Source: Elusimicrobiota bacterium
GTDB lineage: Bacteria; Elusimicrobiota; Elusimicrobia; UBA1565
Length of the DNA stretch: 64,000 nucleotides
Direction: 5' to 3'
NCBI GenBank assembly: GCA_016196755.1
Contig: JACPXC010000048.1
Coordinates: forward strand, 1 to 64,000
Below are positions 20,806 through 30,932 of the stretch, one piece after another. The notes under the pieces are model-generated. The model saw only the letters and a list, made by a program, of their open reading frames with translations, did no database searches and was not told where the DNA came from. The translations under genes and the position numbers were made by a program. Every line of letters begins with the position of its first letter. Positions within the stretch are counted from its first letter, which is position 1.

Positions 20806-22224
20806 ATGGCACTTAAACTATTCGCCTCATTGTCAGAGTCAAGCGCGGCAGACCTGGTTCGGGTCGTGCCGCGCCTCCTATCCGTGATATTGCCGCAAAT
20901 TGAGGTTGTGGACACGCTTCCGGAAGCGAAGTTCGGTTCTGTCCGAGTTGACCTCCGATGCAGGGTGAAAGTCGGAGGAGTTCGGAAAGACCTCATCGTC
21001 GAAGTTAAGTCCAAAGGCGAGCCAAAGTATCTCCTCAATGCGATCGGAAGTCTGTCCCTTGTCACTAAGCAGCGGCCGGACGCTTACCCCGTTGTTTTCG
21101 TGCCCAGCCTAACGCGGGAGGCTCGCGCGCTTCTTCGCCAAGCCGAGGTTGGGTACATTACTCTTCGGGGAGAAGCCTTCCTGAAATTCGATTCGGTTTA
21201 TATCGACAAAGAATCAGGAACCGCCGATCTTGAGGAAATGGCCGAAACCAATCTTCGCGCCCTTGAATCCCCCCGACGCTCGCGCGCCCTAAAAGAGCAA
21301 TACCAAAACATACTGAAGGAAGCGTCGGAGACGCGAAGATCGCGCAAGACCCTCGACTTCCCGTTCAGCGCCAAAGCATCTCGCGTGGTCCGTGCGCTCC
21401 TGGAAAAGCCGGACATGGGGTGGTCCATCTCTACGCTCGCCAAGGAAGCCCGGGTGGCGCCCCGGCTGGCACTCTTGGTGGTTAACAATCTTGATGCCGG
21501 CGGCTATGTGAAGAAGGTCCCGGGAAACATCCGGCTTGCTCAGCGCGACGCGTTGCTCGATAGCTGGAGCGCACTGTACCGATTTGAGAAGGCGAACCGG
21601 CTGAACTTCTGCTACTCGCTGGCCTCGGATTTCGAGGCGTTCTCGGCCAAGCTCGCGGCCTTGCCCGATGAACTGCGGGATGGATATCGTCTAACCATGT
21701 TTGCGGGCGCGTCGTTGGTCGCACCCTACGTGAGGTTCAACACGATTCACCTCTATGTCAGGAGCGGCCTTGAAGACTGGTTGAAGCGCCTCGATCTCGA
21801 GCGCGTCGAGTCGGGGGCCAATGTCGTCTTGGCGGAGCCATTCGATGAAGGAGTATTCGATTATCGCCAGACGAAGAAGGGACTGAGCATCGTCTCCAAT
21901 ACACAACTCTACCTGGATCTCTTCAATCTAAATGACCGGGCTCGGGAGCAGGCGGGGTTTCTCTTCAAGGAAACCCTTAAGCGCGTTACCCCAGGGAGCC
22001 TCGGGGAACGGATCAAATCCGCCCGCTTGGCGCGGATGGGCGAGCGCGGAGCAATGACGCAAAGAGGGCTGGCGGACTTCCTGCAAGTCTCTCCCGAGCG
22101 CGTGCAGGCTTGGGAGGAGAACGCGGAGCGCCCCACGGATGAACAACTCCAGAGACTTGCAAGATGGCTCCGCAAGCCGATCGGGTATTTCCTGACGGCG
22201 GGAACAGAGGATGCTCGAGCCTAG
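20806..22224 (+). CDS. AbiEi-type antitoxin with nuclease-like N-terminus and C-terminal HTH
   Basis: A 472-residue protein, much larger than a minimal AbiEi. Residues about 30-110 look like a PD-(D/E)XK nuclease fold: Asp49, then Glu66-Val-Lys68 on a strand (LIVEVKSK). Residues about 185-255 form a winged helix of the AbiEi/transcription-factor kind (RVVRALLEK, LAKEARVAPR), followed by an AbiEi_C-like middle. Residues about 400-465 are an Xre-type helix-turn-helix (TQRGLADFLQVSPERVQAWE). The antitoxin call comes from fold and from the adjacent nucleotidyltransferase. Base composition is clearly lower in G+C than neighbours, suggesting transfer. It overlaps the toxin gene by 14 nt. Confidence 0.65.
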   Translation: MALKLFASLSESSAADLVRVVPRLLSVILPQIEVVDTLPEAKFGSVRVDLRCRVKVGGVRKDLIVEVKSKGEPKYLLNAIGSLSLVTKQRPDAYPVVFVPSLTREARALLRQAEVGYITLRGEAFLKFDSVYIDKESGTADLEEMAETNLRALESPRRSRALKEQYQNILKEASETRRSRKTLDFPFSAKASRVVRALLEKPDMGWSISTLAKEARVAPRLALLVVNNLDAGGYVKKVPGNIRLAQRDALLDSWSALYRFEKANRLNFCYSLASDFEAFSAKLAALPDELRDGYRLTMFAGASLVAPYVRFNTIHLYVRSGLEDWLKRLDLERVESGANVVLAEPFDEGVFDYRQTKKGLSIVSNTQLYLDLFNLNDRAREQAGFLFKETLKRVTPGSLGERIKSARLARMGERGAMTQRGLADFLQVSPERVQAWEENAERPTDEQLQRLARWLRKPIGYFLTAGTEDARA

Positions 22225-23104
22225 AACAGTCTCCGATTACAGCAAAGAGGTCACCGAGGCCTCGAAGTCCGTCCTGCTTGAGGTCATGACAGTAGTCGGC
22301 GAGTACAGCCCGGCCATCGTCCTGATCGGCGGCTGGACGCCTTACTATCTGCTCCACTCGCGGCTGGCGTTCGATGGGACAGAGCCGTTGGCATTCGGTG
22401 CCGGGAAGTTCCGCCATGCCGGCTCCATCGATATCGATTTGGCCGTGGACCCAGCCAAGATCACGGGTGAGGAATATTCGACGATCATCAAGCTGCTTGA
22501 GAAACGAGGGTACACTCCGGACAAGGAGATCAAATTCCGTTGGAATCGAGCGATGCCCCGCATCGATGGGCCGATCGGCGTGGACTTTTTGACGACGAAG
22601 CCTCCGCTCGGCCAGGGCCGGGCGCGTCGACACCGCGAGGTTCAGGCGGACCTTCCAGCTCGGGCTACGGATCACCTGGAACTGGCCTTCCGCTGGAACG
22701 AGCCATTCATGCTCGAAGGAGAGCTCCCCGAGAAGGGCGGCAGGACCCGAGTCGAGATCAAGATCGCCTCGTTGCCGGCGATTGTCGGGCTCAAGGGGCT
22801 CGCGCTTGGAAACCGCTACAAGGAAAAGGACGCTTACGACATCTATGCCCTATGTCGACACTATCGCGCCGAGGTCTCCGATACCACCGAAATCCTGAAA
22901 CCGCATGTGGGGCTTGATGGACTCAAGGAAGGTATGGGGTGCATCCGAGCCAAGTTCACGACCGTGAAGGATGCCGGCCCCGCCTGGGTCGCGAAGTTTT
23001 TCGATGCGGCAAGTCCCGAGGATGAGTCCCGGATCGCTCAGGATGCGTTTCAGACCCTCGATCGAGTATTGAGGGGCTGCGGATTGCCTCAAGGCGCTGC
23101 ATGA
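22211..23104 (+). CDS. AbiEii-type nucleotidyltransferase toxin
   Basis: A 297-residue protein with the nucleotidyltransferase fold of type IV AbiEii toxins: GGWTPYYLL near residue 38, then the metal-binding SIDIDLAVD pattern (about 72-80), and the late KEKDAYDIYAL block corresponding to the conserved K..RD..DI of the family. AbiEii members modify tRNA acceptor ends or other RNAs and stop growth; the target of this one is unknown. It has the same lower G+C as its partner and ends about 160 bp from a tRNA-Asn gene. It may alternatively be a nucleotidyltransferase of a phage-defence pair. Confidence 0.75.
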   Translation: MLEPRTVSDYSKEVTEASKSVLLEVMTVVGEYSPAIVLIGGWTPYYLLHSRLAFDGTEPLAFGAGKFRHAGSIDIDLAVDPAKITGEEYSTIIKLLEKRGYTPDKEIKFRWNRAMPRIDGPIGVDFLTTKPPLGQGRARRHREVQADLPARATDHLELAFRWNEPFMLEGELPEKGGRTRVEIKIASLPAIVGLKGLALGNRYKEKDAYDIYALCRHYRAEVSDTTEILKPHVGLDGLKEGMGCIRAKFTTVKDAGPAWVAKFFDAASPEDESRIAQDAFQTLDRVLRGCGLPQGAA

Positions 23105-24029: not shown

Positions 24030-25652
24030 CTAAGGGACGGGCGGGGGCCTCTTGAGGTCCCCGATCGTCCGCCAGCCGCGCCGCGCCGCGTCAGCCTCGC
24101 GGACGCCCAAGGCGTAGGTGTTGCTAAATCCCAACCCCCCGAGCCAACGGCAGCCGAAGCGGCGGGGATACTCGCGGGCTACCGTCGCGTAGGCGGACGC
24201 GCGGTCAGCCTCGGCGGGCAGGCCGAGGATGGCCGTCAACGCCGTACCGGTGTACTCGGCATAGGCGTCGATCTCCCCGGCCTTCAGGGCGTTGTGGACG
24301 ATCATCGTGCCGCCGAGGCTGAAGCGTCTGAGCACGCGGACCCCGAGCCGGGACTCGACGAGCTGGGCCATGAGTTCGCCCAGCAGGACGCCCTCGGTGA
24401 AGGCCTTGGTCCCTATGACGACGGGACGGCCGCCTGGTTTCGGCGCGGCCGAGCCGTAGAGGCGCCGGCTCTCGAGGAACTCCCGCGCCACGGCGGCCGG
24501 CGAGCGCTTGCGCTCGTCGACCTCGTAGTTGAGCTTCCGCATGGCCTCCTCGTCGAGCCGCCCCGCCAGAGTCTCCCACGCCGCCGCCAAGCCGGGCGTG
24601 GCGTCGAGGACGGCCTGCCGCACGACCGGAGCCGCCTCGTAGGCCGGAAAGACATGGAGGTCGTCCTCGAGCAGGCGGACGCCGTAGGCCCGCAGCCGAC
24701 CATCCGTGCTGTAGGCGCTGATGAGGTCGACGGCGCCGCCGGCAAGGGCCCGGTACATGAGCGAGGCCTCCATGTCGCGGACCTCGGAGAAGCGCATCCC
24801 GTAGGCGAGTTCGACGGAGCTCAGGCAGTCCGGCCGTCCGATGAACTCGCCGGTGAAGGCGGCGCGCAAGGGGACGTCGGCCAGGACGGGCTTCCCGCCG
24901 TCCGCCGGGACGAGCGCCAGCGCGGCGCCGGCGGCCAGCGCGGGTACGGCGACCCAGGCCAAGCCCCGCCGCGCCCGGCGCCGGGCCGGGGCGGCCTGCG
25001 GGCCGCGCTCGAGAGCCGCTTCGACCCAGGCGAGCGACTGGTCAAAGGCAAGCGCCAGCCAGGCGGCCGGCAGGGCGCCGAGCAGGATCAGGCGATGCTG
25101 GCTCAGGTAGAGCCCCCGGTTGATGAACTCGCCCAGGCCGCCGGCGCCGATGAAGGCGCTCAGGGTCGTGATCCCCACGCCGGCCACGGCCGCGGTGCGG
25201 ATGCCGGCGACGATCACCGGCATGGCCAGCGGCAGCTCCACGAGGCGGAGCCTCTCGTTGGCCGTCATCCCCAGACCGTCGGCCGCCTCGAGGGACGCTT
25301 GGGGGACGCCGCGCAGGCCGGCGACCGTGTTGCGGACGATCGGCAGCAGCGCATAGAGGGTCAGCGCGACGAGCGCGGGGGGCGCGCCGATGGCGCTGAT
25401 CCGGCCCAAGAGCGGCAGGGCCGGCAGGGCCGAGAGGATGACGATGAGCAGCGAGAGCAGCGCCAAGCTGGGGACGGTCTGCAGGACCCCCGCAAGCGCC
25501 AGCACGGGGCCCTCCAGCCCGGGGCGGCGCCGGACGAGCGCCCCGAGCGGCAGGCCGGCCAGCGCGGCGGCCCCGACGCTGGCCGCGGTCAGCCCCAGAT
25601 GCTCGGCCAAGCGCAGCCACAGCTCGGCGCGGTGCTCGAGGACGAAGTCCAT
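24030..25652 (-). CDS. Betaine/choline-type ABC permease fused to a permuted binding domain
   Basis: A 540-residue fusion. Residues about 10-215 are an OpuCB/ProW-type permease with the coupling loop (EAADGLGMT...LVELPLAMPVI). One more hydrophobic segment (about 231-250) leads to a periplasmic substrate-binding region of the OpuAC/OpuBC type, but the two halves are swapped: residues 262-395 match the usual second half (GRPDCL, YSTDGRL, LLEDDLHVFP, LNYEVDE), while 410-534 match the usual first half (VVIGTKAFTEG, GGTMIVHNAL, EYTGTALT, IGDLK). Known relatives import glycine betaine, choline or carnitine. It overlaps the ATPase gene as ATGA and is the last gene of a three-gene operon. Confidence 0.85.
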   Translation of the reverse strand: MDFVLEHRAELWLRLAEHLGLTAASVGAAALAGLPLGALVRRRPGLEGPVLALAGVLQTVPSLALLSLLIVILSALPALPLLGRISAIGAPPALVALTLYALLPIVRNTVAGLRGVPQASLEAADGLGMTANERLRLVELPLAMPVIVAGIRTAAVAGVGITTLSAFIGAGGLGEFINRGLYLSQHRLILLGALPAAWLALAFDQSLAWVEAALERGPQAAPARRRARRGLAWVAVPALAAGAALALVPADGGKPVLADVPLRAAFTGEFIGRPDCLSSVELAYGMRFSEVRDMEASLMYRALAGGAVDLISAYSTDGRLRAYGVRLLEDDLHVFPAYEAAPVVRQAVLDATPGLAAAWETLAGRLDEEAMRKLNYEVDERKRSPAAVAREFLESRRLYGSAAPKPGGRPVVIGTKAFTEGVLLGELMAQLVESRLGVRVLRRFSLGGTMIVHNALKAGEIDAYAEYTGTALTAILGLPAEADRASAYATVAREYPRRFGCRWLGGLGFSNTYALGVREADAARRGWRTIGDLKRPPPVP

Positions 25653-26395
25653 CAGAGTTCAAGGAGCTCGGCCGGCTTGCGGAAGAGCCGCTCGACGAAG
25701 GCCGTGGCGGGCCTCTTGAGCAGGTCCTCCCCGGAGCCCAGCTGCTCGACCCGGCCCTCGTGCATGACGGCGATGCTGTCGCCGAGGTCCAGCGCCTCGA
25801 AGATGTCGTGGGTAACGAACACCACCGTCTTCTCGAGCCGCGCTCGGAGGCTCTTGAGCGCCGCGCGCAGGCTCTCGCGCGTGAGCTCGTCGAGGGCGCC
25901 GAACGGCTCGTCCATGAGCAGGTATTTCGGCTCGGCGGCCAGGGCGCGCGCCACGCCGACGCGCTGAGCCTGGCCGCCGGAGAGCTCGGAAGGATAGCGC
26001 CCGGCATAGAGGTCCGCCGGCAGCTCGACGAGGCCGAGGAGCTCGCGCGCCCGGAGCCGGCGCTCTTCGGGCGGACGGCCGGCCAGACGCAGGCCGACGG
26101 TGATGTTCTCCTCGATGCTCATATGAGGGAAGAGGCCGACCTGCTGGAAGACGTAGCCGATCGAGCGCCGCAGGCGCACCGGGTCCTGCTCGAGCACGTC
26201 GACCCCGTCGACCGACACCGTCCCGGAGGTCGGCTCGACGAGGCGGTTGATCATCTTGAGGACCGTCGTCTTGCCGCTGCCCGAGGAGCCCAAGAGGACC
26301 AGGGTCTTGCCGTCGGGGACCTCGAGCGAGAGCTCGCGGACGGCGAAGGTCCTCCCGCCGTCGTGCGATTTCGACAAGCCGCGCAGGACGATCAA
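25652..26395 (-). CDS. ABC transporter ATPase, OpuCA/ProV type
   Basis: A 247-residue ATPase that powers the fused permease/binding protein. Walker A GSSGSGKTT (about 37-45), Q-loop VFQQVGLFPHMS, signature LSGGQAQRVGVARAL, Walker B YLLMDEPFGALD and H-loop VTHD are all present. No CBS domain follows, unlike OpuCA of some species. The TTG start overlaps the stop of the upstream permease gene as TTGA, and its own stop overlaps the next ATG, so the three genes are tightly coupled. The frame is open upstream but that part is antisense to nothing recognisable and overlaps the preceding gene. Confidence 0.9.
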   Translation of the reverse strand: MIVLRGLSKSHDGGRTFAVRELSLEVPDGKTLVLLGSSGSGKTTVLKMINRLVEPTSGTVSVDGVDVLEQDPVRLRRSIGYVFQQVGLFPHMSIEENITVGLRLAGRPPEERRLRARELLGLVELPADLYAGRYPSELSGGQAQRVGVARALAAEPKYLLMDEPFGALDELTRESLRAALKSLRARLEKTVVFVTHDIFEALDLGDSIAVMHEGRVEQLGSGEDLLKRPATAFVERLFRKPAELLEL

Positions 26396-27255
26396 TCGCG
26401 GCGCTCGGCCTTCGCCGAGCGGAGCATCATGACCGCCGTGTAGAGCACGACCAGCATGACCAGCCAGCGCAGGGCCGTCATCGGCAGGGACTTCACGATG
26501 AAGGCCGCCACGAGCACCGCCGGCGCTCCTCCGAGGGTCAGGCCCAGAGCCGCGCCGGGGGTGTAGCGCTTCTCTTTGATGAAACGGAGGGAGGCCACCG
26601 GCATCAGGAACGCGCAGGAGCCCATCATGATCGGGAAGGCCGTGATGGGGCTCATGCCGAGGACGCTGACCAAGATCATCGAAGGGGCATAGGCGCCGAT
26701 GCCCAGCGTCATCAACGCCCCGAGGACGAGGTTGCCGACGACGGCGATCCCGAGCTTGGCGCCCGAGAGTCCCAGGGCCTCGCCGCCGGGGGGAAAGAGG
26801 CCGACGTTCTTCATGAAGAAGAACACCGCGGCCGCGAAGAGCGCCGCGGCCATGCCGAGCTGGATCTTGCGGCGCGGCCATCCCGCCACGATGCCGGCGC
26901 CGAACCAGGCCCCGATGACCGCGGCCGCGATCATCAGGATCAGGGTCTTCATCTCGATCTCGACGATGGAGATGAAGATGACGGCCTCGAGGAAGGTGGG
27001 GATGGTATGGCCGATGTTGAGGATCCCCGGGATGTTCTCGTCGGGCGCGCGCTTGAAGAGCTTGAGGAGCGCCGTCGTCGGCGCGAACGAACCGATCCCC
27101 AGCGTGTCGATGAAGTCTGTCAGGGCGCCTATACCGAGCTCGACGCCGTCCGGGCGCCGCACCGAGGGGTCCTCGCGCAGGCTGGCGTACCAGCGCCAGG
27201 CGAACGCGGCCGTCACGAGCGTCAGGGCCCCGAGAAGGCCGGCGCGGGCGTCCAT
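26392..27255 (-). CDS. TauE/SafE-family membrane permease
   Basis: A 287-residue protein with about eight membrane helices and the internal duplication typical of the TauE/SafE (DUF81) family: two Gly/Pro-containing halves, for example GIGALTDFIDTLGIGSFAPTT and LMTLGIGAYAPSMI. Members export sulfite, sulfoacetate or other organosulfur anions; the substrate here is unknown. It is the first gene of the operon with the betaine-type ABC genes, which could link it to organosulfur or osmolyte metabolism. TATGCT (27273-27268) lies 12 nt before the ATG and there is no clear ribosome-binding site. Confidence 0.8.
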   Translation of the reverse strand: MDARAGLLGALTLVTAAFAWRWYASLREDPSVRRPDGVELGIGALTDFIDTLGIGSFAPTTALLKLFKRAPDENIPGILNIGHTIPTFLEAVIFISIVEIEMKTLILMIAAAVIGAWFGAGIVAGWPRRKIQLGMAAALFAAAVFFFMKNVGLFPPGGEALGLSGAKLGIAVVGNLVLGALMTLGIGAYAPSMILVSVLGMSPITAFPIMMGSCAFLMPVASLRFIKEKRYTPGAALGLTLGGAPAVLVAAFIVKSLPMTALRWLVMLVVLYTAVMMLRSAKAERRD

Positions 27256-27325: not shown

Positions 27326-30300
27326 TTATTTCTTATCCGCGACGGCTCCGCCCGCGCGCACCGAGGCGATGTAGAGTTCGGCCTTGCGCAGGACCTCGGA
27401 GTACGGCTCGCCGGTCAGGATCTCGACGCCCTGGCTGACGTGCGACACCGCCCAGATGTGGAACTTGCCGGCCTTGACCGCGGCCACGATGTCGGCGCGC
27501 AGCGTCAGGTCGGGGATGTTGGCCACCGGGATCATGATGCCCTGCTCGCCGTCCATCTCCCGGCCCTTGAGGCGCAGCATCTCGGCGACCACGTCGAAAT
27601 AGCCCTCGATCTTGTAGTTGACGCCGCCGATGACCTGCACGTTGCCCTTCTGGTCCATCGAGCCCGTCATCGCGATGCCCTGCTTGATCTTGACGCCGGA
27701 GAGAGCCGAGAGCACGCCGTAGGTCATGGTCTGGGTGGCCGAGTCGCCGTCGATGCCGCCGTACTGCTGCTCGAAGGCGATCGAGACTTCGACCGGCACG
27801 GTCCTCTTCTTGCCGAACAGGTTGTTGAGGAAGCCCTTGATGTCGGCGATCGACTTGTCAAACGAGCTCCCCGTGCTGTTGGCGGCCTGGTCGGCCGAGA
27901 CGATCAGCGCGCTGCCGGGCCGGGCGTAGGCCGAGTAGGTGATGCGCGAGGGCACGCCGAAGTCGCCCATGACGGCCAGGCCGTTGTTCTGGCCGACCTC
28001 GGAACCCGCGATCTGCACGCGGAAGATCCCGTTGGCGTAGAGCTCCTTCATGCGCCGGCGGCCGGAGCCCTGGCGCTCGACGCGCTCGGAGACCGCCTTG
28101 TCGACGTCCTCGCGCGCCACCAGCTCGCGCCCGGCCTGACGGGCCCAGAACGAGGCCTCGTGCATCAGGGTCTGGACCAGCCCGAACTGCGCGGTGAGCT
28201 TCTCGTTGGACTCGGCCATCGCGGCCGCGCTCTCGAGGACGCCGGCGATCGCCTCGCGTCCGAAGTCGAGCAGGTTCGTCGTGCCGCTGGTGACCACCTC
28301 GCGCATGAAGCTCAGGTAGCCCTTCACGGTGTCGGCCGCGATCTTAAACGAGTTGTCGAACTCCGCCGCGGCGTGGAACAGGCGGGCGAAGTCCTCGTCG
28401 TTGTGGGCCAGGAGCATCTTGAGGTAGGGCGCGCCGATGAAGACCACCTTCACCTTGGTCTCGATCGGGTAGGTGGCGCCCTGTTTGGCGGTCATGAGGC
28501 CCACCAGGCCGTCCTCGACGATCTCCGCCTTGCCGTTGCGGATCATCCGCATCAGCGACTGGTAGACGCCCGGCTCGCGCAGGGTGTCGAGCAGGTTGAG
28601 GACGAGGAAGCCGCCGTTGGCCTTGAGGAACGAGCCGGCCTTCAGGGTCGGTCCGCCGGGGCCCTCGCGCTTGACCATGCCGCCGTTGGGCATCATCATG
28701 ATCTTCTTGTTGTCCTCGGCGTAGCCGAAGAGGTTATTGAAGGTCGGGGTGGGCTCGAAGACCACGGGCGCGCCCTTGGTCTTGGCGTTGTCGACCAGGA
28801 GGCCGACGTTGTAGCGCTCGGCCGGGTCGCCCTCGGCCTCGGTGGAGAAGGCGCGCCAGCCCATGACCAGGTCCTGGGCGAAGGACTGCACCCACTCGAT
28901 CGCCCGCTGGCGGTCGGCCGTCATGGGCAGGTCGTTCTCGTGGAGCTTCTGGTGCTCGGCCTCGATCCCGGCCTGGACCTTCTCGAGCTCAGCGGAGAGC
29001 GGCTGGACGGCGGCCATCGCCGCCCCCACGAGCGCCTCCCAGGTCAGGGCCGCGTCGACCTTGCCGGCCTCCTTGAGGGACGCGAAGCGCTTGGGGCTGA
29101 CCGGCTTGCCCTCGTAGGTGATGGCCAGGCCCTCGCCGATGGCGATGCCGAAGATCCCGCCGACCTTGACCTTCGCGACCTTGGTCTCCCAGGCCTTGAA
29201 CTTCTTCTCGGCGGAGGCGCGCCAGGCGGTATGGCCCTCGTCCTCCTCCCGGTTGGCGGCGCCGGAGACCAGGCCCGCCAGATCGGCGGCGAGCTCGCTG
29301 ACGACGGCGCCGGCCACCTTCTGCTCCAGCATCATGAGCTGCATCTGGGCCTGCTCGGCCTCGGCGCCCGAGGACTGCATCATCTCGCCGAACTTCTGGA
29401 GGAGAGGCTTGGCCTTGGCCTGGGCGTCGGCCATGGCTTGCTGGAAGGTGACGCCGGTTCCCTCGAGGGCCTTCTGGGCCTCCTCGGGGGAGATCGCCTT
29501 GCCGTCTTTGGTGATCGCGGCCCGGACGTTGATCTTGCCTTCGCCGGCCTGCTCGGCCGATATCTCGATGCCGAAGCCGCCGACGACCTTGACCTGGGCG
29601 ACCTCGCGCTGGAAAGCCTTCTGGCGGTCGGCCGCGCCGGCCTCGAGCTGGGCTTGGACCTGCTTGCGCAGCTGGCCGACCTCGCCCTGGTTCAGGGCCT
29701 TGTTCATGGCCCCGGGGAAGTTCTCGACGACCTTGTCGACGGCGGCGAGGAACTTCGCGCCCTCGCCGGGCTCCATCTTGAGGACGTGGGGGTTGTCGCG
29801 GTCGGCGAAGTTGACGGCGGCCACCAGGTCGCCGGGCGTGGCGCGCTTGGGCGCGAGCTCGGAGAGCATCTCGCGCACCGCGGTCTCGCGGCCGGTTCCC
29901 TCGGCTCCGGAGACGATGACGTTGTAGCCGGGGTCCTCGATCTTGAGGCCGAACTCGAGCGATTCCAGCGCGCGGTCCTGGCCGACCATGCGGCGCGCGC
30001 CGCGGGTGGCCTCGGAGGCCTTGGCCGGCAGGGCCTTGGCGTCGGGAGTCCAGCGCAGCTTCTCCGCCGGGACCTTGAGCTTGTCGGTGTCGATCGTCGC
30101 CGCCTTGGGACGGGCGTCCTCGGCCTTCTTCAAGGCGTAGCGGCGCACGGAGCCCAGCGGGCTCCAGCCGGCCACGGTCGTCCAGAAGCCCGACGCCTTC
30201 GCGGCGGTCTCTACCGGCATGAGCTCGGCGCGGCGGGAGTTGTCGTAGATGGCGGCCATCGACTCGCCGCCGCCGCCGAATTTCTGGGCGGCCAGCGACT

Positions 30301-30775
30301 TGCCGAAGGCGGTGATGCTCTCGCGGGCGGCGCCGGCCGGCAGCGCGGCGGCCACGGCCTCGAACTGGGCCGGGGTCTTGGCGGCGTCGAGCTGGGTGAG
30401 CAGGGACTGCCCGCCGGCCTTCTGGACCGCGGAGATCATCGAGAGGGCGGGGTGGCGCTCCACGGCCTGGGCCCCGGCGGCGGCCGCGAAGGCCGACGGG
30501 GCCGCGGCGGCGGGGGTCATGACGGCGGCGGGCGCCGCCTGGGGGCGGGCGGAGAGGACCGGGGTCGGCAGGGCCGCGCTGGGGCCGGTCAGCACCGGCA
30601 GCGTCATCGTGAAACCGTTGACGGAGGGCCCGTGAGTGGTGTAGCCGGCCGCACCCACGCCGGAGGGGACGGCGGCGACAGGGGCGGCGGCGCGGGTCAC
30701 GACCTGGGCTCGGGCGGCCGGGGCGCTGCCCCAGACCAGACCGAACGAGAGCATGACGGCCAGGAATTTTCTCAT
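27326..30775 (-). CDS. Lon-type AAA protease with a signal peptide
   Basis: An 1149-residue protein. Residues 1-23 are a signal peptide (MRKFLAVMLSFGLVWG then APAARAQ), followed by an Ala/Pro-rich leader containing PTPVLSA, similar to the leader of the arginine-deiminase-like protein. A LonB/AAA_32-type module follows: P-loop variant GAEGTGRET (about 292), as usual for that family, and a large helical insertion. The C-terminal Lon protease domain has the catalytic dyad Ser near 1011 (GDSATQTM) and Lys near 1054 (GGVNYKIEG). Family members are cytoplasmic and ATP-linked; a signal peptide is therefore odd. ATG 30775 was chosen for the clean leader, with GAGG about 10 nt upstream; an ATG 14 codons earlier is possible. 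Confidence 0.8.
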   Translation of the reverse strand: MRKFLAVMLSFGLVWGSAPAARAQVVTRAAAPVAAVPSGVGAAGYTTHGPSVNGFTMTLPVLTGPSAALPTPVLSARPQAAPAAVMTPAAAAPSAFAAAAGAQAVERHPALSMISAVQKAGGQSLLTQLDAAKTPAQFEAVAAALPAGAARESITAFGKSLAAQKFGGGGESMAAIYDNSRRAELMPVETAAKASGFWTTVAGWSPLGSVRRYALKKAEDARPKAATIDTDKLKVPAEKLRWTPDAKALPAKASEATRGARRMVGQDRALESLEFGLKIEDPGYNVIVSGAEGTGRETAVREMLSELAPKRATPGDLVAAVNFADRDNPHVLKMEPGEGAKFLAAVDKVVENFPGAMNKALNQGEVGQLRKQVQAQLEAGAADRQKAFQREVAQVKVVGGFGIEISAEQAGEGKINVRAAITKDGKAISPEEAQKALEGTGVTFQQAMADAQAKAKPLLQKFGEMMQSSGAEAEQAQMQLMMLEQKVAGAVVSELAADLAGLVSGAANREEDEGHTAWRASAEKKFKAWETKVAKVKVGGIFGIAIGEGLAITYEGKPVSPKRFASLKEAGKVDAALTWEALVGAAMAAVQPLSAELEKVQAGIEAEHQKLHENDLPMTADRQRAIEWVQSFAQDLVMGWRAFSTEAEGDPAERYNVGLLVDNAKTKGAPVVFEPTPTFNNLFGYAEDNKKIMMMPNGGMVKREGPGGPTLKAGSFLKANGGFLVLNLLDTLREPGVYQSLMRMIRNGKAEIVEDGLVGLMTAKQGATYPIETKVKVVFIGAPYLKMLLAHNDEDFARLFHAAAEFDNSFKIAADTVKGYLSFMREVVTSGTTNLLDFGREAIAGVLESAAAMAESNEKLTAQFGLVQTLMHEASFWARQAGRELVAREDVDKAVSERVERQGSGRRRMKELYANGIFRVQIAGSEVGQNNGLAVMGDFGVPSRITYSAYARPGSALIVSADQAANSTGSSFDKSIADIKGFLNNLFGKKRTVPVEVSIAFEQQYGGIDGDSATQTMTYGVLSALSGVKIKQGIAMTGSMDQKGNVQVIGGVNYKIEGYFDVVAEMLRLKGREMDGEQGIMIPVANIPDLTLRADIVAAVKAGKFHIWAVSHVSQGVEILTGEPYSEVLRKAELYIASVRAGGAVADKK

Positions 30776-30932
30776 CGCTGTGTTGCCTCGGTTCTCGCGG
30801 CGGTTTTCGTCCCTCATCCCATCAATGTTAAGGGTACAGCGATTCTCAGTCATGGGTCGACGGGCTCCATACGGCATGCATTAGGGCCTATGCGCGCCTA
30901 GGCCTTATCGCCGGGCCGCGGGCGGTGTTTGG

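Follow-up and report, generated by a model that had tools for sequence, protein, structure and literature searches.

A permease fused to a circularly permuted OpuC-type binding domain in an Elusimicrobiota bacterium, with a cut site that appears to recur

An Elusimicrobiota genome (GenBank assembly GCA_016196755.1, contig JACPXC010000048.1) encodes an OpuC-type permease fused to a substrate-binding domain in which the two halves of the chain seem to have changed places. An earlier note, based on the letters of the 64,000-nucleotide stretch analysed here (hereafter the window), had read the second block of OpuAC motifs (residues 262-395) ahead of the first (410-534). This locus raises the question of whether the domain represents a true circular permutation of the OpuC fold, where its chain was opened, and how often the order of the halves has changed. 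The features of the gene and its neighbours are collected in Table 1. In the window protein, half B carries the motifs GRPDx..AYSTDGR..DDxxVFPAY..LNYEVD and half A the motifs VVIGTKAFTEG..LGGT..YAEYTGT..GFSNTYAL..IGDLK, with the stop codon directly after half A.

Table 1. The fusion gene, its segments and its upstream neighbours in the window
Feature	Position	Strand	Details
Permease / permuted substrate-binding-domain fusion (P0001)	24030..25652	-	540 aa, ATG start
OpuC/ProW-type permease domain, residues 1-215	25008..25652	-	Pfam BPD_transp_1 at residues 33-212; helices in full-length model
Extra hydrophobic helix, residues 220-247, tethering the binding domain	24912..24995	-	full-length AlphaFold model; predicted membrane insertion
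Half B (canonical second half), residues 258-398, now first	24459..24881	-	OpuAC profile 114-256 at residues 261-394
New linker, residues 399-409, joining old C- to N-terminus	24426..24458	-	alignment of permuted Elusimicrobia proteins
Half A (canonical first half), residues 410-540, now last	24033..24425	-	OpuAC profile 2-113 at genomic 24039-24425
ProV/OpuCA-type ATPase	25652..26395	-	TIGR01186 proV family; start taken as TTG at 26395, read from sequence
TauE/SafE-family membrane protein, upstream of ATPase	26392..27255	-	PF01925

The fusion protein matches the Pfam OpuAC profile (PF04069) above its cut-off (4.3e-54) in two crossed stretches, the second part of the profile coming before the first (the latter at about residues 410-538), as the earlier note had claimed; its description of the permease as standard also agrees with the Pfam match. 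A canonical HMM of length 260, built from 55 canonical-order domains collected in this study, likewise gave two crossed matches to the window domain (134.1 and 132.8 bits). When all 286 rotations of the domain were compared, the best one, starting at VVIGTKAFTEG, produced one match of 273.2 bits over profile positions 1-259, and rotation rescued a single end-to-end match in 4 of the 4 permuted homologues tested as well. Furthermore, none of the 27 OpuC/ProX/EgtU/OsmF-type sequences found in the PDB is matched in one continuous stretch; each match is split, and the halves stand in exchanged order in the alignments shown. Chance or a misread motif is excluded as the cause of the swapped order, and the interpretation that the binding domain is circularly permuted, its OpuC fold intact, is supported. 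Since its half order is B-A, the window protein is filed as a permuted variant and not as a standard OpuC member. Profile searches report permuted genes as two OpuAC fragments.

The AlphaFold (AF2) model of the binding domain, for which canonical proteins were entered in the alignment as separate half fragments, is intact and two-lobed (pLDDT 96.6, pTM 0.91), which, with the end-to-end rotated profile match, fits the suggestion that the fold tolerates the swap. The full-length model (pLDDT 91.0, with a moderate pTM of 0.69) contains the helix at residues 220-247. In structural comparison the model is closest to OpuAC and to further OpuAC/OpuC-like proteins. The top 5 rows of a Foldseek search against the PDB are all B. 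subtilis OpuAC, aligned over the full length with TM-scores of 0.60-0.65 (by query length) at 12-15% identity. The alignments to OpuC-type chains of 33-39% identity cover 136-147 columns, and some other OpuC-family chains span more columns at an rmsd near 8 and about 11% identity. Similarly, VIA-align superimposes model residues 1-278 on 2b4m (Z 20.4, rmsd 3.4, 246 aligned residues, 16% identity) but OpuC-type chains on residues 1-145 at most (Z about 10); canonical OpuC structures match over a single half, at 36-38% identity. The window binding domain is an OpuC-family sequence with the chain order of B. subtilis OpuAC.

In EgtUC, lobe D1 comprises residues 232-331 and 445-503 and lobe D2 residues 341-432 (PMC9732360, text available in part). 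Since the start of the model aligns structurally to EgtUC residue 363, the new termini are placed in lobe D2, after the ISDL helix. A cut at the hinge, or lobe crossing, was considered and rejected, these boundaries and the structural offset putting the cut about 22 residues into D2. Both lobe-to-lobe crossings are kept in the permuted domain. Because canonical proteins have their N- and C-terminus both in D1 and the cut is in D2, the tether helix attaches to the opposite lobe, in line with the earlier proposal that the cut shifts the lobes relative to the anchor. The chain runs from the permease through the tether helix to the canonical second half, a short new linker and the canonical first half; the linker joins the old termini in D1, and the new termini open the D2 loop after the ISDL helix, leaving the domain to hang from D2 and not from D1. 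Venus-flytrap closure would work as usual, with both crossings kept. The likely genetic route would be that the domain was duplicated in tandem downstream of the anchor and that the outer halves were then lost. The linker and the anchor are the two fastest-changing segments of the fusion protein.

Among known systems, B. subtilis OpuAC of the OpuA transporter (PDB 2b4l, 2b4m, 3chg, 5nxx) has the same permuted chain order, an equivalent cut and an end-to-end structural match. It is, however, only 12-16% identical to the window domain and belongs to the OpuA rather than the OpuC family. Going by the accessible parts of the respective papers, it is a separate lipid-anchored protein (PMC2861598) with a Trp-based cage (PMC9732360), whereas the window domain is fused to the permease and carries Tyr cage motifs. 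Sequence searches with the window protein returned no OpuAC binding-domain chain (phmmer E <= 0.001; profile E <= 10), and the L. lactis OpuABC chain 7ahc was matched through its permease (query 11-244). B. subtilis OpuAC gave crossed phmmer matches, with an equivalent cut, to L. lactis OpuAC (3l6g, 7ahc), Borrelia 3tmg and ChoX 2reg, the half-A match to 2reg being weak (i-Evalue 0.13); these matches show that B. subtilis OpuAC is itself permuted relative to these three.

The nearest PDB relatives of the window binding domain are of OpuBC/OpuCC type. OpuC, OpuB, EgtU, OsmF and AfProX (cluster F-III; 3ppn, 6eyg, 7txk, 1sw1) belong to the same sequence family in both halves, with 33-39% identity to their structures over the aligned half, and they share Tyr cage motifs and permease and ATPase partners with the window system. 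They differ from it in their canonical order, all 27 PDB sequences matching the permuted profile only in separate stretches. S. pneumoniae EgtUBC and L. lactis OpuABC also place the binding domain C-terminal to the permease (PMC9732360, PMC2861598, each in the portion available) but keep the canonical half order. According to a partly available report on T. pallidum TpMglB-2 (Tp0684; PMC4990184), this type Ic protein is an ABC binding protein that is naturally circularly permuted and, like the window domain, membrane-tethered, and tethering was proposed as a reason for its permutation; it has a type I (sugar) fold, a different cut and an extra (fourth) hinge crossing.

The swapped order is rare. 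Of 52 named homologous loci, 48 are canonical and 4 permuted, so the order is not a shared feature of all homologues, the case that the earlier note had named as speaking against its reading. In the genome samples, a permuted gene was recognised as one full-length match, and distant permutants may have escaped; on this basis, samples from six phyla, 1,779 genomes in all, contain 10 genomes with a permuted gene, each in an intact frame. They are found in 4/340 genomes of the window's phylum (searched with a protein query; distant permutants are likelier to be missed here), and in the phyla of the Latescibacterota MAG (1/64), the Kiritimatiellae MAG (2/337), the Planctomycetota MAG (1/343) and the Acidobacteria MAG (2/297), with none in 398 genomes of the phylum of the Burkholderiaceae MAG (E <= 1e-30). 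The closest named homologues of the window fusion come from three Elusimicrobia MAGs, and canonical-order genes occur in five genomes of the window's own genus, family and order (G001, G003, G006, G043, G046). The window's genome gave no second PF04069 match in a profile search. In a plasmid search, each of the 15 listed of 386 matches came in two pieces. The permuted domain is fused to a permease in the four Elusimicrobia and in G676 and G1178, is a separate TM-anchored protein in the Latescibacterota MAG, G718 and G774, and in one case, G1095, precedes a coiled coil and a channel of MscS type.

To place these proteins, a tree of 46 rows (10 permuted, 36 canonical) was computed from half A, half B and the permease, the canonical rows being hand-picked from 98 or duplicates of picked rows (L088 = L039, L089 = L038). 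This tree has 5 order changes, at least 4 of them forced by the starred branches, and trees with one change made up 0% of 200 bootstraps. The permease-only tree, which is blind to the half order, also has 5 changes, 3 of them forced by the starred branches; the best binding-domain-only tree needs 6, of which the starred branches alone force 1. The permuted proteins fall into the four Elusimicrobia, G1178 beside canonical L121, and a set of L037, L111, L129, L110 and L119, among which canonical L113 and L120 nest. Collectively, the permuted proteins are not one clade; the order changed about 5 times, in at least 3 separate lineages of the sampled OpuC-type proteins. The D2 site is a permutation hot spot, the same cut being found in the OpuA family, in B. 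subtilis OpuAC. Taking the observed domain order, predicted fold, scatter on the tree and opposite-order orthologues together, and treating transport, substrate class and the effect of the tether as predicted properties, we consider it highly probable that the window protein is the membrane subunit of an OpuC-type quaternary-amine importer and a genuine circular permutant opened at a recurrent cut site.

Several other explanations were weighed against this reading. A single ancient permutation spread by horizontal transfer, with the scatter on the tree as noise, would account for the identical cut point in all ten proteins, for a G[DS]GSAG motif in the new linker of 5 of the 10, and for the rarity of permuted proteins and their scatter over five phyla. 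It is improbable nonetheless, since a single clade of all ten permuted proteins, specified in advance of the tree, is rejected by the AU test (p 7.09e-05). Three further groups, named after the tree had been viewed, were rejected too: the GDGSAG five by themselves (p 0.0079), joined with the Elusimicrobia (p 0.0022), and joined with G1178 (p 1.9e-05). The permease-only and binding-domain-only trees concur on several changes, and the linkers are distinct between the Elusimicrobia, G1178 and GDGSAG groups. An assembly or frameshift artefact, or a decaying gene, might be suspected from the sources, the ten permuted genes all coming from draft genomes, several of them named MAGs, and from the loss of some conserved residues in the window copy. 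The same junction, however, stands in intact frames throughout: four of the genomes are Elusimicrobia (61-74% identity to the window), and another six belong to different phyla. Moreover, the start of the fusion gene overlaps the stop of the ATPase gene in the window, and dN/dS in the Elusimicrobia set, where finite, is 0.16-0.40 in both halves, well below 1, so purifying selection acts on both. This explanation, to which we give next to no credence, is refuted for practical purposes. Hardly more credible is a swapped half taken from another gene rather than a rotation of the same domain, an idea put forward for the permuted portion of MglB-2 from T. pallidum (PMC4990184, in the text at hand). 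Against it stand the near-equal identities of the two halves in the L110/L113 pair (73% and 74%) and separate FastTree trees of A and B, both of which recover the Elusimicrobia clade and place L110 with L113 in one small clade.

The permuted protein of G718 (L110/L141) and the canonical one of G592 (L113/L145) lie in operons of shared order, namely MttB-like, methyltransferase-like, ATPase, permease, binding protein and asparagine-synthase-like genes, with one extra small membrane-protein gene before the last of these in G718 (Pfam was run on the G718 genes only). Since their permease and anchor are collinear at the DNA or translated level and the halves are exchanged (blastn, about 69-72% DNA identity in the halves), the half order changed in place. 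No extra A or B half, as in a tandem ABA or BAB intermediate, was found among 135 loci, nor does the 621-bp gap upstream of the canonical G592 gene contain the remnant of one. The sharing of G[DS]GSAG suggests one origin of those five proteins, and hence reversals rather than repeated gains among them. The A-B joint, taken as the residues between the ISDL helix and the EF motif, was measured in 95 canonical proteins (111 loci, 16 of which were set aside as duplicates) and is 13-15 residues long in 93; the sole two above 15 are L113 (16) and L120 (20), which had been picked from the tree and their sequences inspected before the lengths were counted. With such joints, both proteins look as if they had been switched back, and the simplest reading for the GDGSAG group is one opening and two re-closings. 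Alternatively, the order of L113 and L120 may be ancestral and L110, L119 and L037/L111/L129 three separate gains. Parsimony treats both accounts equally, with three changes either way, and canonical is the common state; we nevertheless find the ancestral account rather doubtful, as the linker must then arise three times and the two long joints, expected of a re-made joint, are confined to these two proteins. It is an evenly balanced proposition that half order is a reversible two-state trait of tethered quaternary-amine binding domains, with one D2 loop opened in OpuC-type proteins on three or more occasions and in OpuA-type proteins once, and re-closed at least twice (L113, L120), with the long joint as a scar and the operon and anchor helix unmoved.

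With regard to function, the cage motifs AYSTDGR, FPxY, EYTGT and GFxNTY are retained. The aromatic cage of EgtUC consists of F293, N339, Y341, Y419 and Y443 (PMC9732360, partial text); by structural offset, Y314 and Y338 of the window protein are equivalent to Y419 and Y443, and its cage residues Y467, N511 and Y513 were assigned by motif only. From the ATPase and permease types, the cage motifs and the MttB-like genes that adjoin other permuted operons (by Pfam at L141; by eye at L140 and L037), the substrate is predicted to be a quaternary amine of the betaine, choline or carnitine class. At the position following FTE, three of the four permuted Elusimicrobia proteins carry Gly and the fourth Ser in place of Gln; in 95 canonical proteins this residue is Gln in 62, Ser in 28, Gly in 4 and Ala in 1. 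Since an acetylcholine sensor chain in the PDB search has FTEG (another chain has FTEQ), a ligand other than glycine betaine is possible. Compared with its three permuted Elusimicrobia relatives, the window copy deviates at positions conserved elsewhere, with RPDCLSS for RPDGLPG or RLDGLKN (residues 273-280), VFPAY for FFPPY (334-338) and GGLGFSNTY for KPFGFNNTY (505-513). These losses hint at relaxed or altered ligand selection, and activity could differ.

The best family of the ATPase is TIGR01186 proV (1.2e-86), with 291.1 bits below the family cut-off of 326.6, and an orthologue adjoins the fusion gene at the Elusimicrobia loci L034, L035 and L036. The TauE/SafE-family gene is probably in the same operon as the fusion gene in the window. 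An operon partner as an explanation of the permutation was dropped, the TauE gene, a gene for a 198-aa protein and a Lon-like gene all being absent from the homologous loci L034-L036.

Natural circular permutations are usually treated as old, single events between distant proteins. Opposite-order orthologues 73-74% identical in one operon make the steps of permutation and its reversibility testable on close natural pairs, and likewise the effect of hanging a flytrap domain from either lobe. PDB entry titles show that OpuAC/OpuC-family domains are already in use as scaffolds of sensors for choline, nicotine and other drugs, which makes natural permutants a useful point of departure. The permuted topology itself was already known from B. 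subtilis OpuAC: CPSARST, in 2008, listed circular permutation among the glycine-betaine-binding structures 2b4l, 1r9l and 1sw1 (PMC2395249, accessible in part). That family comprises distant structures (<24% identity), in contrast to the permuted OpuC-type domain and the order change between close orthologues described here, and the accessible part of the paper mentions neither permuted proteins of OpuC type nor recurrence nor a changed order in closely related orthologues. Our literature search, in which this was the relevant prior report, gave among the entries listed none that deals with permutation of an OpuC-type domain or with its repetition within the OpuAC/OpuC family; PMC12667903 is without betaine or substrate-binding text and PMC2096629 without betaine or OpuA. 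Recurrence is the part that looks new.

Some further observations concern the surroundings of these genes. An MttB-like gene (trimethylamine methyltransferase family) lies beside the OpuC-type operon at L141, L145, L140, L146, L037 and L149, in several phyla; most of these loci also have a SAM-dependent-methyltransferase-like gene and often an asparagine-synthase-like gene (Pfam for L141, the remaining loci read by eye). They form a possible quaternary-amine uptake and demethylation cluster. In G1095 of the Acidobacteriota sample, the gene L138:7070-10219 (+) encodes a 1050-aa protein in which an N-terminal anchor and the permuted OpuC-type binding domain are followed by a long coiled coil and a channel of MscS type (MS_channel_2nd, MS_channel_3rd), so that an osmolyte outside the cell may gate or tune the channel; this genome also has a canonical OpuC-type gene elsewhere. 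An MscS-family gene (L037:5525-6946, by Pfam) lies directly downstream of the permuted binding protein of the Latescibacterota MAG, and a similar-looking membrane-protein gene, judged by eye, follows a canonical binding protein in G857 (L147:2926-4194). In the window, 27326-30877 (-) encodes an 1183-aa LonB/LonC-like protease (AAA_32, LonB LID, Lon_C), the N-terminal region of which resembles a signal peptide with a long Ala-rich stretch behind it; provided that the start is correct, this would be an uncommon feature in a Lon protease. Finally, the overlapping genes 20806-22224 (+) and 22211-23104 (+) encode an AbiEi-type antitoxin with a C-terminal HTH (PF09952) and a weakly matched AbiEii-like nucleotidyltransferase (PF08843 E 0.0015, under the cut-off; PADLOC AbiEii 0.0009), and are probably a divergent type IV toxin-antitoxin pair.
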